Shown here one piece after another: positions 5,254-29,626 of a stretch of DNA of 35,195 nucleotides. Both the position numbers and the translations under genes were made by a program. The notes under the pieces were generated by a model, which worked only from the letters and a program-made list of their open reading frames with translations, was not told the origin of the DNA and did no database searches. Source of the stretch: Ignavibacteriota bacterium (GTDB taxonomy: Bacteria; Bacteroidota; Ignavibacteria; UBA10030); contig PMDB01000019.1 of NCBI GenBank assembly GCA_003155495.1, positions 16,655 through 51,849 of the forward strand, written 5' to 3'. Within the stretch, counting starts at the first letter, position 1; each line of letters starts with the position of its first letter.

Positions 5254-7161
5254 ATGAGAAAGAATACTTTGCAAAAACACAATTGGAAGATCATTTTGCT
5301 GCTGGTCGTCGTCTGTTCTGTGATCAGCATTGCCAGTTGGGAATTTCTTTTCTCCCAGAACGACCCCTCAGATGGAATTGTCTTTCGCGCAGTAGCGTTT
5401 GCTGATGCGAAAACAGTAATCGCCGTCGGGGATAGCGGAACCGTTGCACGTTCAACGGATCAAGGCGGTACATGGTCTATATCGCATAATATAAATCGCC
5501 TCACGACACCCTTGAACGGAATCTGTTTTACAGATCCGACACATGGATTTGTGGTTGGTGCAAATGGCACCCTCCTTATGACGACGAATGGCGGAATAAC
5601 TTGGATCAATAAACCTGTGGGCACGAGTGCAAATTTCCGATCCATCTTTTTCAGCGATGCAAAAACAGGTACGATCGTTGGCAACAATGGTTTTATTTTT
5701 CGAACTCTCGACGGTGGAAGTACATGGCTCACACAAGCAAGCAACATTCGCCTGAACCTTAACAACGTCTCTTTCGTAGACAATGAAACAGGCATCATCG
5801 TCGGCGATCGGGGAACTATCCTCCGCACAACAGACGGTGGAGAGAATTGGAGAAATTTTTCATCTTCATTTATTATGTATAATTTTTATTCAATTTCTTT
5901 TTCCGAATTGAATAATGCTATTATCGTAGGAGCGAATGGAACCATCATATATACAACCAACGGCGGTGAAAATTGGACATTAGAACCCAGCGGTACCACA
6001 GAAACACTTTTCTGTAACGTCTTCCCCTCTACAAATTTTTCCGCTGTAGTAGGCAATGCTGCCACGATTCTCGTTTCCTATACAAAAGGGACGAATTGGC
6101 TGCGGCAAAAGAGTAGTACTCGCAAAGCACTTCTTTCGGCAGCGTTCACTGATGCAAAAATCGGGGTTGCCGTCGGAGCAAATCAAACTATCATTCGGAC
6201 AACAGACGGCGCAATTTCTTGGGAAGCTTCTACACTTATTCTCGAAAAGTCTATCGAGCTTTCAATCGCTGAGTTACTTCCCCGGGACAGGTATCCCAAA
6301 AATAATATTGCAGTCGCCGTCGGAGCGAACGGCACTCTTTTTCAATCTAAAGATTTCGGTGCAAATTGGATAAAGATGACTGGCAAGAGTGAGAATACTC
6401 TGATGTCTGTTACATCCATAGATCAGACGAGTATGATTGCTGTAGGAAACGGTGGTGTCGTTCTCCGGTCGGACGATGCAGGAACGACATGGACCCCACA
6501 GATAAGCACTACCTCTCGCCCACTTTTCCGCGCTTGTTTTACCTATAACGATTCTGGCATTATTGTGGGTGATTATGGAATTATGTTAAAAACGACCAAC
6601 GGTGGAACAACATGGTCGAAAATTTCCTCAGGAACGATCAACCATCTACGTGATATAGTATTTACTGATAACCAAACCGGAATTGCAGTCGGAGCAATGG
6701 GAACCATATTGATTACAACAGATAGAGGAACGACCTGGACATCACAGGTAAGTGGAACGTCCAGTTGGCTTAATGCAGTCTCGCCAGTCGATAAATCTAC
6801 ATTTATCACTGTCGGTGCCGATGGCACCATCCTTCGGACAACCAATAAAGGTACAACGTGGACGGCACAACCCAGCGGAACAACGAAGGAATTGTTAAAT
6901 GTGTCCTTCTCCGACACAGCAAACGGATTTGTAGTGGGAATAGAAGGAACAATTTTACGCACGCAAAATGGAGGCACCAAGTGGACTGCTCTTGAAATCG
7001 AATCCACAAATGATTTGCGGGCGGTTCAGTTCTTTGATAAACAGCAAGGGATCATCGTTGGAACGAACGGCACGATCCTGAGAACAATAGACGGCGGAAC
7101 GAGTTGGCAAAAAGTAGAGACAGACTTTCCATTGACTCTCTTTGGTTTAGCAATAAATTGA
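5254..7161 (+). CDS. membrane-anchored or secreted YCF48-like (BNR-type) beta-propeller protein
   Basis: The 635-residue protein has a hydrophobic segment at about 13-30, a signal anchor or signal peptide. The rest is a chain of about 14 repeats of roughly 42 residues. Each has the core pattern (V/I)(A/V)VG..GT(I/L)(L/Y)RTT(D/N)GG.TW, typical of YCF48/HCF136-like and sialidase BNR repeats. Fourteen units would make two seven-bladed propellers. YCF48 in cyanobacteria assists photosystem II assembly, but in heterotrophs the same fold appears in many exported proteins of unknown role, so no photosynthetic function is implied. It starts 9 nt after ruvB and may simply be read through from the ruv genes. 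No sorting domain is seen at the C-terminus. Confidence 0.85.
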   Translation: MRKNTLQKHNWKIILLLVVVCSVISIASWEFLFSQNDPSDGIVFRAVAFADAKTVIAVGDSGTVARSTDQGGTWSISHNINRLTTPLNGICFTDPTHGFVVGANGTLLMTTNGGITWINKPVGTSANFRSIFFSDAKTGTIVGNNGFIFRTLDGGSTWLTQASNIRLNLNNVSFVDNETGIIVGDRGTILRTTDGGENWRNFSSSFIMYNFYSISFSELNNAIIVGANGTIIYTTNGGENWTLEPSGTTETLFCNVFPSTNFSAVVGNAATILVSYTKGTNWLRQKSSTRKALLSAAFTDAKIGVAVGANQTIIRTTDGAISWEASTLILEKSIELSIAELLPRDRYPKNNIAVAVGANGTLFQSKDFGANWIKMTGKSENTLMSVTSIDQTSMIAVGNGGVVLRSDDAGTTWTPQISTTSRPLFRACFTYNDSGIIVGDYGIMLKTTNGGTTWSKISSGTINHLRDIVFTDNQTGIAVGAMGTILITTDRGTTWTSQVSGTSSWLNAVSPVDKSTFITVGADGTILRTTNKGTTWTAQPSGTTKELLNVSFSDTANGFVVGIEGTILRTQNGGTKWTALEIESTNDLRAVQFFDKQQGIIVGTNGTILRTIDGGTSWQKVETDFPLTLFGLAIN

Positions 7162-22918: not shown

Positions 22919-23092
22919 TGTCATTCCCAGCCGGAGGCGTAAAACTGAATCACACGAAGTGTGATACATTATCAGGCTTCCAGCTATCGGGAATCCAGAA
23001 TTGAGGAAACCGAGACCTGGATGCCCGTGTAGAAAATAAGACACAGGCATTGCCTGTGTCAGTTACAGGCCTCCGGCTGCGGGCATGACAGA
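22919..23092. repeat. composite intergenic palindromic repeat (REP-like)
   Basis: Nested inverted pairs fill this stretch: TCATTCCC (22921) with GGGAAT (22989), the perfect ATCACAC/GTGTGAT hairpin at 22949-22965, ATGCCCG (23021-23027) with CGGGCAT (23080-23086), and the perfect GACACAGGCA/TGCCTGTGTC hairpin at 23040-23060. The edges, like TGTCATTCCC and GGGCATGACA, are those of widespread bacterial intergenic repeats. No gene is seen in 22893-23237. Confidence 0.7.
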
Positions 23093-25592: not shown

Positions 25593-26003
25593 TTATTTTA
25601 CTTTTACTTCGATCTGTTTCGGCTTTGCTTCTTCTGTTTTCGGCAAAGTTATTGTTAAGACACCATCACTCATTTCTGCGGAGATCTTGGCCGCATCGAT
25701 TTGATATCCGAACTTAACAGAGCGATCAAAACCCGAGTTACGGATTTCTTTCAACAGAACGGTATCCTTCTCCGAAACCTCGGAAGGTTTCTGTTCGCTG
25801 CTCAGAGTCAGAATATTATTTTCAAAAGTGATTTTAACATCTTCCTTCTTGACGCCCGGTAATTCTGCATTGACAACGATCTCGTTTTCTTTTTCAACGA
25901 TGTCCAAAGCCGGTACCGTGCAACGGTTTGGCAGCACATCAGATGAAAAGAAATTCTCGATCAGATTATCGTAAGTTCTTGGTGAATCGAATCGTACTAA
26001 CAT
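25593..26003 (-). CDS. Hsp20/alpha-crystallin family small heat-shock protein
   Basis: This ATP-independent holdase keeps unfolding proteins soluble for refolding by DnaK and ClpB. The 136-residue length is typical. The alpha-crystallin domain (about 30-125) contains IVVNAELPGVKKEDVKITFE, ILTLSSEQ, and the closing G-x-L motif as DGVLTITLPK. The usual C-terminal IxI anchor appears as IEVKV. ATG start with an AAGGAG site. Flanked by its own terminator and, 124 nt upstream, by a perfect inverted repeat that could be regulatory. Confidence 0.94.
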   Translation of the reverse strand: MLVRFDSPRTYDNLIENFFSSDVLPNRCTVPALDIVEKENEIVVNAELPGVKKEDVKITFENNILTLSSEQKPSEVSEKDTVLLKEIRNSGFDRSVKFGYQIDAAKISAEMSDGVLTITLPKTEEAKPKQIEVKVK

Positions 26004-26143: not shown

Positions 26144-26289
26144 ATGTTTCGGATAAAGCAAGCTTGTTATGGCAGGATGATAGGAAAAAAAGGCATATAG
26201 TTCGTGGACAGGATTTAAGTTTATATGCCAGATAAATAAAGGGAAGTTAATCCAGAAACCAAAAAATGAAGTTCTAATCAGATAATGAT

Positions 26290-26442
26290 ACGCTGACTAT
26301 CGGATGGCATATCCGGCAATCCGCCCAGAATATGGCGGACGCGTAAACCGCGAAAGACGGTGGAAAAGTAGGTCCGTGGCGCTTTTTGCGGCACGCGATC
26401 GTGTTCCGTTTAAAAGTCGGAACGGACTGTTGCACTGAAAAC
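26290..26442 (-). repeat. imperfect repeat copy A, downstream of the aldo/keto reductase
   Basis: This 150-bp stretch contains internal hairpins GTCCGT/ACGGAC (26372-26427) and GTTCCG/CGGAAC (26403-26423), and shares its two edges and centre (ATCGGATGGC, GCACGCGATCG, GGACT, GAAAACT) with copy B at 27601-27719 in the same orientation. No gene is visible in 26004-26566 apart from this and the palindrome at 26127. Confidence 0.6.
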
Positions 26443-26566
26443 TTTCACATCTTAAATATGAACTCGGCATCTACTTCATTCGATGAAGCGAAAGTATTCT
26501 GTCTACTTGACTCTTTTCTTTTTCGAATGGTTAGGCCGCACGATTACATCTGATCAGCCAATATTC

Positions 26567-27481
26567 CTACATAGTCCAGGGTTCGGCATGGATATCGAGT
26601 TCATCCGACCACTTGTACTGAAGAGTTTTAATTTCCCTGATAATGTTCTCGGGAAGTGGTTCAATAGTATCTTTTACAGAAAGGAACTCATTCAGGTTTT
26701 CAATTTTACTCGTTGAACCCACAGTAGCCTTCACCTGAGGGAAGCTGTGTGCAAACCGAATGCAGAATTCCGTCCAGCTTTTTATTCCGGATTTTTCAAA
26801 TATCGGGGCTACTTCAACTGCACGTTTTTGTAGATACTCTTTCCAGGCGTAGCCCGGTACGTCACGCAGTCTGTGGACTGGCCCTCCAGAGACAGTCCGC
26901 ATGGCAATGATTGATTGCTTCCTTTCAACAATTTCATCCCAAAGCGCGTTAGAGGCAAATCGCTGCAGCGGATTGAGGTAAAAGATGAATCCATCAACAA
27001 TGCCCTCGGTATAACCAGCGCGAAGGGCTTTTAATGGCGGCTCTGATGTCCAGGGGAATGCTTCGACAACATAACCTTGCACAAGTCCTTCATCTTTCAA
27101 ATCCTGGAACACCCTGTAGCAGTGCCCACCATGAGCAAAATCATTTGCGAGTTCTCCGCCAAGGCATAGTTGTCCAAGCTGCATTCCGTCCCGCCCAAGA
27201 GGTTTAAGATTTTCTTCGATTACGCCCCTGAGTTGGTTAACATTGTCCCATCCAATTTTAATGATGAGCTTGGGTACTTTCATTGGCTCTTCTGCAAAAG
27301 CTTCGCCAAGTACTTCAAGGGCATCCCCATACATCCTGGATGTATGGAACCATACACCGGTATTCATTGCAGCACGGGCAACTTTCATCCTCTGCTCACG
27401 CGGGATAGCATCATCACCAAGCCGCGTTGTACCATATATGTAAGGTGTAATTTCGTTTAATGCCGATCTGCTATTTGACAT
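26567..27481 (-). CDS. aldo/keto reductase-like protein with altered catalytic residues
   Basis: The 304-residue protein fits an aldo/keto reductase TIM barrel: GTTRLGDD at the N-terminus, TGVWFHTSRMYGDALEVLG at 41-59, KLIIKIGW at 71-78, and the C-terminal cofactor region ATVGSTSKIENLNE. In typical members the first motif is FDTA..YG; here the catalytic Asp is His (H46) while Tyr (Y51) and Lys (K75) remain. The usual catalytic His after the fourth strand is not evident (QLCLGG). It may be a non-classical oxidoreductase or may have lost that activity. ATG start with GAAAGG upstream. It stands alone between two related repeats, as a transferred cassette might. Confidence 0.72.
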   Translation of the reverse strand: MSNSRSALNEITPYIYGTTRLGDDAIPREQRMKVARAAMNTGVWFHTSRMYGDALEVLGEAFAEEPMKVPKLIIKIGWDNVNQLRGVIEENLKPLGRDGMQLGQLCLGGELANDFAHGGHCYRVFQDLKDEGLVQGYVVEAFPWTSEPPLKALRAGYTEGIVDGFIFYLNPLQRFASNALWDEIVERKQSIIAMRTVSGGPVHRLRDVPGYAWKEYLQKRAVEVAPIFEKSGIKSWTEFCIRFAHSFPQVKATVGSTSKIENLNEFLSVKDTIEPLPENIIREIKTLQYKWSDELDIHAEPWTM

Positions 27482-27600
27482 GGCAAGAGCCTTTCAATAA
27501 TTATTTTTTATTCTCAAAATTCTATTCGTTAACATTACCATGCTGGTGTGAGCATCTATAAGCACCACGATATTGATTATCCTTGTAGATTTTCAACAAT

Positions 27601-27719
27601 GCCGGCTAACGGATGGCTACAAATTTGCAGTCTTCCAGATGATGTATAAGTCCACGGCGTATTTAGCGCCACGCGATCGCGATCCAGCAAAGTTGGAAAG
27701 GACTACGCCGTTGGAAACT
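27601..27719 (-). repeat. imperfect repeat copy B, upstream of the aldo/keto reductase
   Basis: The related 119-bp copy includes TCCACGGCGTA (27651-27661) pairing with TACGCCGTTGGA (27704-27715), one base bulged, around a GCGATCGC core. On the minus strand it runs from TTTCCAACGG to CCGTTAGCC, an AAC...GTT layout that loosely recalls integron attC sites. Matches to copy A are strongest over GCGCCACGCGATCG and the two ends. Confidence 0.6.
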
Positions 27720-27905
27720 ATCAAATTATACTAAACGAAACAAGTTCATTCTCATTATTTTCAAATCTGCAATACACCTCTGCTCTTTATGATTTATTAT
27801 AGTGCGCTTCTTGATAAATGCTATATCACACTCTTTATAATACATTTTCCCGAACAATCTATAGGGACGTTCTGCTCTGTTTCGCTTAGTAAACCTTGTT
27901 TTGCG

Positions 27906-27969
27906 GATTGCCCGCCTGACCGTCGGGCAGGCTTCATTCTCCCGACAAGTCGGGATCACTCGCAATGAC
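27906..27969. repeat. intergenic palindromic repeat (GATTGC...GCAATGAC type)
   Basis: The 64-bp element starts GATTGCCCG and ends CGCAATGAC, with the perfect CCCGAC/GTCGGG hairpin at 27941-27954 and a GC-rich palindromic block at 27910-27932. Its edges match a common class of bacterial intergenic repeats. The remainder of 27482-28063 contains repeat copy B and no convincing gene. Confidence 0.65.
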
Positions 27970-28063
27970 TGTCTCTTTGTTTTTTAGACGGCCTCTCGGT
28001 TCACCTTGCATTTCACACGCTTTTTAGCGTATCTTTTCTATCACCTTTTGTTAAGGAACCAAT

Positions 28064-29626
28064 ATGCGTCGGCTGTTTTTACTTCTGCCATTTTTCTCTG
28101 TACTAGTATACGCGCAAGCCATCGATCCGGCCTCGAAGACCGGTTATAAATCCATCAATGATGCCAACCTTAAAGTAAACCTTACCATTCTCGCTTCCGA
28201 TAGCCTTGAAGGACGCGAGACTTCCTTCCCAGGCCAGAAGAAAGCCGCACTATATATTGCCGGTATTTTTAAGAAACTCAATTTGGAACCTATCGGTGAT
28301 GATGGAACATATTTCCAACATTTTGATATCGAAATATCACGCGTTCATCCGGAGACAAAGATTGTTATAGAAATTGGCGGCAAGAAGAAAAGTTACCTCT
28401 GGGGTACAGATTTCATATCAGAAGGAGCAAGAGACACGACGGTAACAGGCCCCGCAGCATTTGTGGGATTCACCGATGCGGAATTAGATTCTGCGACTCA
28501 AGCGAAACTTGTCGGACGTGTCGTATTCGCCTTTATCGGCACGAAGGATTATGCCAATGATACAACAAAGGCGGCGACGTTGCGACGACTCTATGCGATT
28601 CGCCATGATGTTGGAGCGATTGCTACGCTGATGATTCCGGATGAAGAAGGGCCTGCCACATTCCAACATGCACAGCAAATGATGCGCGACTTTGGCACAG
28701 ATAAGGGAATCATGCGGATGAAGAACAATATGCCTCATGTACAACCGTCCGGTATTCATTTTCTTGTATCGCCGGCTTTGGCGGAGGAAGTGCTGAGATC
28801 ATCGGGCAAATCACTCAAACAGTTAAAAAATGAAGCGCTGCAAATCAAGGAATTCACGCCGATATTCATCGACAACGCAAACGTAACCATTGAGGCAAAG
28901 GTTATTCGAGAAACGAAACAAACAGAGAACGTCCTTGGCTTTCTACCAGGAGGTTATCCTGATCTCAAGACGCAGGTTGTTGCTTTTACTGCTCACTATG
29001 ACCATTTAGGAAAGAACCGAGATGGTGTTGTTTATCCTGGTGCGGATGATGATGGCAGTGGTACAACTGCTGTTTTGGAACTTGCGGAGGCATTCGCGAA
29101 AAATCCCATTAGACCAAAACGCAGTATGCTCTTCTTGACAGTAGCAGGTGAAGAGAAAGGATTGTTAGGTTCGCAATATTATGTGAATCATCCCATCATT
29201 CCTCTGAATCAGACAATTGCCGACCTGAATATGGATATGATTGGGCGTATTGATACTGTACACCAGGCATACAAAGACACCAATTATATATACGTTATTG
29301 GATCTGACAAGATAAGTCTTGAGCTTGACAGTCTGCTTCAAGCAGCGAACGCAGAATCGGAACAGTTGAAGCTTGATTATAAATATAATGACGAACAAGA
29401 TCCTGAACGATTCTATTACCGGAGCGATCATTATCAATTTGCAAAGAATGGAGTACCAATCGTTTTTTTCTTTGACGGTATCCATGCCGACTATCACAAA
29501 CCAACCGACACCGTCGATAAAATACTATTTCAACGAATGGGAAAGATATGTCGAATGATTTATGATCTTGGATGGAAACTCGGGAATTTTAACCGGCTGC
29601 TTATAAAAAAATCTACCAAAGAATAG
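28064..29626 (+). CDS. secreted M28-family zinc aminopeptidase-like protein
   Basis: The 520-residue product has a signal peptide (about 1-18, ending VYAQA) and is probably periplasmic or outer-surface. M28 metal ligands are visible: H311 in TAHYDHLG, D328 in GADDDGSG, E363/E364 in AGEEKG (general base and ligand), D391 in NMDMIGR, and H478 in HADYHKPTDT. Residues 120-300 resemble an inserted protease-associated region (LVGRVVFAFIG). Such enzymes remove N-terminal residues from peptides for nutrition. The ATG follows AAGGAACC. birA begins 12 nt later, so the two are probably co-transcribed. Confidence 0.9.
   Translation: MRRLFLLLPFFSVLVYAQAIDPASKTGYKSINDANLKVNLTILASDSLEGRETSFPGQKKAALYIAGIFKKLNLEPIGDDGTYFQHFDIEISRVHPETKIVIEIGGKKKSYLWGTDFISEGARDTTVTGPAAFVGFTDAELDSATQAKLVGRVVFAFIGTKDYANDTTKAATLRRLYAIRHDVGAIATLMIPDEEGPATFQHAQQMMRDFGTDKGIMRMKNNMPHVQPSGIHFLVSPALAEEVLRSSGKSLKQLKNEALQIKEFTPIFIDNANVTIEAKVIRETKQTENVLGFLPGGYPDLKTQVVAFTAHYDHLGKNRDGVVYPGADDDGSGTTAVLELAEAFAKNPIRPKRSMLFLTVAGEEKGLLGSQYYVNHPIIPLNQTIADLNMDMIGRIDTVHQAYKDTNYIYVIGSDKISLELDSLLQAANAESEQLKLDYKYNDEQDPERFYYRSDHYQFAKNGVPIVFFFDGIHADYHKPTDTVDKILFQRMGKICRMIYDLGWKLGNFNRLLIKKSTKE

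Follow-up and report, generated by a model that had tools for sequence, protein, structure and literature searches.

Introduction

The closest known counterparts of the locus considered here are integron remnants that have no integrase of their own. The name CALIN is in use for clusters of attC sites that are not accompanied by an integron integrase, and integrons in Ignavibacteriae/Chlorobi are already in print (both in the accessible text of PMC9024848), so a relic of the kind described below is in itself of a known type. In the accessible parts of three papers, attC sites range from 57 to 141 bp (PMC3053210, PMC5371416, PMC4909258); the Treponema sites termed "long" measure 115–132 bp in the available text of PMC3607928, and, within the accessible portions of the open-licence PMC literature, no paper on attC sites above 200 bp was found.

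The block studied here, an aldo/keto reductase gene between two related repeats that we designate copy A and copy B, resembles a CALIN in that a pair of attC-derived sites encloses a gene and no integrase is close by, but it differs in that copies A and B fail defining features of attC sites, so that a strict detector might miss them; they were read with profiles built from sites of their own and related genomes. As in the chromosomal integrons published for Ignavibacteriae/Chlorobi, an integrase stands beside attC-type sites in congeners, whereas the sites here are mostly about 150–450 nt long as compared with the 57–141 bp just cited. The VCR-type attC sites of Vibrio, which have a large variable terminal structure (PMC2727003 and PMC5371416, in the parts available), are alike in their R and L boxes, long center, and high similarity within a genome, but they are mostly 120–129 bp, and the sites of the present genus differ by hairpins inserted in or next to the L boxes. 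Finally, two small modules within the copies resemble the dispersed palindromes of the REP and TnpA-REP/RAYT systems (available text of PMC8266576), and they occur in a genome with Y1-type transposases.

Our main conclusion, to which we assign a probability of roughly 0.8, is that the reductase block is a relic of one of the genus's own integron cassettes, or of a short array of them, at the locus between the hsp20 and M28 peptidase genes. Such a block shows an integron cassette becoming an ordinary chromosomal gene, with both sites readable but broken.

The Reductase Block

The window, meaning the whole stretch of 35,195 nt that was analyzed, is G000:C6:16655–51849, where G000 is a metagenome-assembled genome (MAG) of 3.59 Mb. 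It contains an intact open frame of 304 aa (26567..27481, minus strand) for an aldo/keto reductase (PF00248, E 3.3e-8, in a Pfam check that covered four genes of the window), the putative cassette cargo. The left neighbor is an Hsp20 gene (25593..26003, minus strand) and the right neighbor an M28 peptidase gene (28064..29626, plus strand, assigned by Pfam and by comparison with relatives). A sequence-only reading had described two related direct repeats around a single minus-strand reductase gene; the repeats, their orientation, and the gene stand, but the outer borders have moved, because both right-hand borders had been drawn too short. Copy A, downstream of the reductase, spans 240 nt (26297..26536, minus strand), and copy B, upstream, extends from 27604 to about 27859–27908 on the same strand. 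The likeness between the two copies appears modest: their longest common stretch is 39 nt at 77% identity (26369–26407 in A, 27647–27685 in B), and they have in common the minus-strand edge word GCCATCCG (at 26308 in A and at 27617 in B), an 8-mer that occurs twice more in the window. A search of the genome with copy A did not return B, nor did a search with B return A, at E 0.001, and Rfam yielded no relevant hit at either the gathering or a loose threshold.

The Resident attC Family

The edge word, allowing at most two mismatches, has 24 matches in G000 as against 4 for a reversed control, and several of them follow one another on one strand at spacings of about 0.5–2.4 kb. The main frames between these array sites are opposite in strand to the edge word, as judged from inspected frames in mechanical ORF lists of both strands. 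Written on the gene strand, the core site of the family runs from GCCTAACCAGGCGCT to GCGCC..ATCCGTTAGGC. The cassette bases that follow GTTAG repeat the complement of the bases that precede the cassette's own R'': over 7 variable positions the agreement is perfect in 17 of 42 consecutive site pairs versus 17 of 1722 mispaired ones, and the mean is 4.8/7 versus 3.1/7, the 42 pairs comprising 19 from the own genome and 23 from named MAGs, some of them wrongly paired because sites were missed.

Paired L boxes with covariation were also found. Of 58 sites, 23 have complete pairing of the boxes, with four box types, and 28 pair at 5 or 6 of 6 positions; the values of 4/6 or less in the other 30 are due in part to hairpins that interrupt the box. 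Since a single box type is dominant, the control separates the two classes only modestly (6/6 pairing in 40% of true sites versus 25% of mispaired ones). In the bottom-strand fold of the attC by the integrase of G003, in the terms of the accessible text of PMC2727003, the L boxes are paired with one base bulged out (z −2.1, a value equalled by 6 of 200 shuffles), and the R boxes pair just in part.

A sequence model of 60 positions, built from 26 sequences (12 of them from G000), was used to score 150 candidates in each of six genomes of the genus; at E 0.01 it gave 61 attC-type matches in G000, 76 in G004, 66 in G003, 41 in G001, 19 in G005, and 2 in G002. The further copies for which the sequence-only reading had proposed a search thus exist, as about 61 matches to the family in the own genome, many of them in same-strand arrays. 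A two-part interior pattern of the family was present in 10 stretches of a named genome collection that may leave out the own genome; these belong to three MAGs, all Ignavibacteriae. The integrase coordinates of two of the three are the same as those of G001 and G004, which makes the genus one of Ignavibacteriae type.

The lengths of these sites have a median of 248 nt in the own genome (range 75–447; 27 of the 51 sites measured) and of 166 nt in two named MAGs (79–284; the other 24), it being noted that N gaps within sites and wrong pairing of ends account for some of the short values. Of the 23 sites in the first training set, 20 measured 191–445 nt, and the remaining three are interrupted by N gaps. 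The resident array sites, mostly 190–447 nt, owe their size to hairpins inserted inside or beside the L boxes (L072, L074, L075, L076, and L083); by eye, the L072 site at 6301 has one hairpin nested in another. This size may be new. As a tentative proposal, to which we give somewhat less than even odds, the genus would run working integrons on extra-long modular attC sites (a core of about 157 nt, extended to about 450 nt by hairpins in or beside the L boxes), scattering over the chromosome cassettes and short arrays that decay and gain dispersed palindromes, the reductase block being one such fossil. Should recombination still take place at the long sites, attC would span a wider range of sizes than is now accepted, and detectors set to that range would overlook some of the cassette pool; the genus has dozens of attC-type sites per genome in four of six genomes, many of them above the sizes given in the accessible parts of the published work. 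A proposed association between loss of the integrase and swollen sites was dropped, since fen_1299, which agrees with G001 in its integrase coordinates, has integrases and sites of up to 288 nt.

Integron Integrases

An integron integrase scoring above the curated cut-off is present in 18 of 61 genomes, among them G001, G003, G004, and G005 of the genus. The integrase sought by the sequence-only reading was not found in G000 itself, where no TIGR02249 match exceeds the cut-off (best E 4.4e-24; an assembly of 119 contigs, 97% complete, could miss one), and draft assemblies can split integrons (accessible text of PMC9024848). In the congeners G001, G003, and G004, members of the attC family lie beside integron-integrase genes, and among five integrase loci of the genus that were fetched with longer flanks, the family adjoins the integrase at three (L119–L121) and not at L122 of G001 or L123 of G005. 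Among the matches listed for G003, a run of sites at C7:115–19944 comes to within about 2 kb of the integrase, which is at C7:21893. The own genome combines about 61 attC-type matches with 0 integrases over the curated cut-off, and G002, with just 2 such matches, looks as if its integron had been lost.

Copy B

Copy B (27604..27908, minus strand) was found by nhmmer at 27859–27600 with E 1.9e-17, using a profile of 23 sites of the own genome from which A and B were excluded, and at 27908–27604 with E 6.5e-14 using a second profile of 35 own and related sites, for which 0 of 1000 regional shuffles were as good. Model R1 matches it in two pieces parted by an insert (27741–27704 with E 8.4e-4, and E 0.61). 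The matches to resident attC sites extend over about 130 to 200 profile positions and securely place copy B among predicted descendants of attC sites. Its R'-type end, GTTAGCC (27604..27610, minus strand, recognized both by profile and as a sequence word), agrees with the R' core GTTRRRY at 6 of 7 positions and would mark the start of the reductase cassette. No R'' core (RYYYAAC, complementary to R') was recognized up to 27908, and the AACGG at about 27707, previously taken for the other arm of the site, aligns with the interior of attC sites and not with an R'' end.

The sequence-only reading had credited both copies with internal pairing; pairing beyond chance is the case for copy A (z −3.4 for minus-strand DNA, −3.5 for the whole site on the plus strand, and −1.9 for plus-strand RNA) but hardly for copy B, with its little excess stability (DNA z −0.28; RNA z −1.6). 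Just to the right of copy B, GC-rich inverted words (CTCCCGACAAGTCGGGA and neighbors) occupy positions 27900–27990 of the window.

Copy A

The evidence for copy A is of another kind. The lack of any attC score, named beforehand as grounds for giving up the cassette layout, does not apply to copy B, but copy A scores only E 0.44, through its interior at 26447–26421 with the 23-site profile, and in the same search an unrelated 31-nt stretch at 22942 ranks ahead of it (E 0.045) and the reversed window gives a best value of 0.31. With the 35-site profile, copy A reaches 2.6 bits in its region, which 2 of 1000 regional shuffles equal, and model R1 gives no match at E 10. Copy A is read as an attC relic from the order of three words, the end word GCCTAACCA, the interior word GAAAGTTTTCAGTGC, and the end GCCATCCGATAG. 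The first of these occurs once in the 35-kb window, 30 nt after the stop codon of the reductase, and includes an R''-type end with the RYYYAAC core (GCCTAAC, 26536–26530, minus strand); the second lies at the place expected from the attC family; and the third is a broken R'-type end (26297..26308, minus strand; CATCCGTTAG in the family), in which the core GTTRRRY is replaced by GATAGTC, with GATAG for GTTAG. The surroundings of GCCATCCGATAG match a site on contig C40 of the own genome (87% over 60 nt) that has the intact end GCCATCCGTTAGGC. The R'' of the C40 site itself was not recognized; a candidate partner of that site lies about 1.2 kb off with up to 3 of 14 mismatches and is not strong alone in a 4.5-kb search. 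The L'' and L' boxes of copy A form 1 of 6 possible pairs.

Copy A thus probably descends from an attC site, and it would then be the reductase cassette's own attC. Although an integron-cassette layout holds as to origin, copy B being a clear homologue of resident attC sites, the gene having the orientation of array genes, and the block being absent from relatives, intact recombination sites are not supported, as both copies fail defining features of attC. Judged from their sequences, copy B securely and copy A probably are descendants of attC sites and not working attC sites.

The Reductase as a Probable Cassette Gene

The order on the minus strand, attC (B), gene, attC (A), is that of the arrays in G000; the reductase is oriented as the genes of those arrays are, and the attC-type site at its 3' end is copy A. 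Between the cassette start and the R'' side of A, 4 of the 7 variable bases are complementary, a value reached by 39% of mispaired controls. The nearest homologue of the reductase, in G009 of another genus, is 83% identical, and DNA similarity to it covers only 26564–27502, that is, the gene and a few bases, ending 3 nt past the stop codon. The dN/dS between the two is 0.10, at a dS of about 1.0, indicating that the protein has been kept.

We infer the route of insertion and the loss of mobility as follows. The reductase would have been captured as an integron gene cassette, alone or within a short array of cassettes, and would have been placed at a secondary site by the IntI of the genus, which would recognize attC as a folded single strand. 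A second cassette, next to copy B, would have lost its gene; both sites would then have decayed, partly through gain of small palindromic elements, and the reductase would have ended as a fixed chromosomal gene. The cassette is probably now locked in the chromosome, as both sites are eroded and no integrase over the cut-off is present in G000.

It is also conceivable, but unlikely, that a piece of an array was moved by another route, such as homologous recombination between repeats or transposition, in which case A and B would still descend from attC sites and would not have been placed by IntI. The presence of two sites around a single gene points to a minimum of two cassettes, one of them now without its gene, and the junctions are not clean attC cuts; however, the Pfam check of four window genes gave no direct evidence for it.

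Dispersed Modules

Two small modules set parts of the copies apart from the attC family. Module 1 (CTTTCGCG...GCGTCCGCC; 26334..26356, minus strand, in copy A) is found in the own genome in copy A, at the C40 site, and at one place on C95 without a visible attC end. It is also present in G001, G002, G003, G011, and G030, and among the congeners it adjoins attC-like ends at two places in G001 and occupies unrelated settings in G002. Module 2, the center common to the two copies (26369..26407 in A and 27647..27685 in B), is a palindrome that occurs as well on contig C7 of the own genome and in G003, where no attC features were seen, and the edges and the center of A and B therefore differ in origin. 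The objection foreseen in the sequence-only reading, that scattered copies might be unrelated to gene boundaries, is accordingly true of the center palindrome and untrue of the attC-type ends in arrays.

Both modules occur outside attC sites, and all six genomes of the genus have transposase domains of the Y1 type (three in G000), which is associated with REP elements. These observations favor an explanation in which the flanking copies are REP-like or other dispersed palindromes, unconnected with integrons, that by chance surround a horizontally acquired gene. We regard this as improbable, since it leaves unexplained the rest of copy B with its long attC match, the unique GCCTAACCA after the stop codon, and the orientation of the gene.

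The placement of array-type words gave no support to the suggestion that modules 1 and 2 are also what makes up the hairpin inserts of the array sites. In 144 kb of own DNA, all 68 matches to six such words fell no more than 150 nt from an attC site defined by the profile, and 0 fell elsewhere, a count in which palindromic words were scored on both strands, the stretches had mostly been fetched around sites, and copy A and the C40 site were counted as outside because the profile does not define them. As separate observations, a Y1-type transposase fragment, a match with an internal stop, lies at L007:4387–4644 on the same contig that bears module 2, and on G002:C42 (L114:5–266) a copy of module 1 begins ~25 nt beyond the last part of an integron-integrase-like frame that scores below the cut-off and stands at the end of a contig.

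The Locus in Relatives

The M28 peptidase, which has matches in 21 of 21 genomes, served as anchor for comparison of the locus, and the stretches of eight relatives from several genera were fetched. Hsp20 is on seven of these (it is missing in G003), and the reductase is on none, so that these relatives lack the block, a point that the sequence-only reading had proposed to check, and the conserved synteny that was to count against a cassette is not seen. At this locus there is a plain gap of about 0.3 kb in five relatives (G001, G002, G007, G010, and G012); in G004 and G005 the space is taken by other sequence, about 4.9 and 2.9 kb long, respectively, and in G003 by other genes. In the comparison with G001, similarity to the window breaks off at 26195 and is picked up again at 28086, which places the block within an insertion relative to G001. 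The intervening stretch without alignable similarity (26196..28085) holds the whole block together with about 100 nt to its left and 180 nt to its right that align to nothing in G001; the junction of the insertion was not recovered because the short G001 gap has about 60 Ns. None of the eight stretches was matched by the attC profile at E 0.001.

That the reductase is ancestral at the locus and was lost in the relatives, the attC-type sequences having come later, is very improbable: homologues do occur in 6 of the 61 genomes, the own one included, but the gene is missing from all eight stretches, and its nearest homologue, that of G009, has different neighbors. The gap between hsp20 and the M28 peptidase gene varies between species, with what by eye are helicase-like and RarD-like frames in G004 (L105:5163–10064) and other sequence in G005 (L107:7219–10093).
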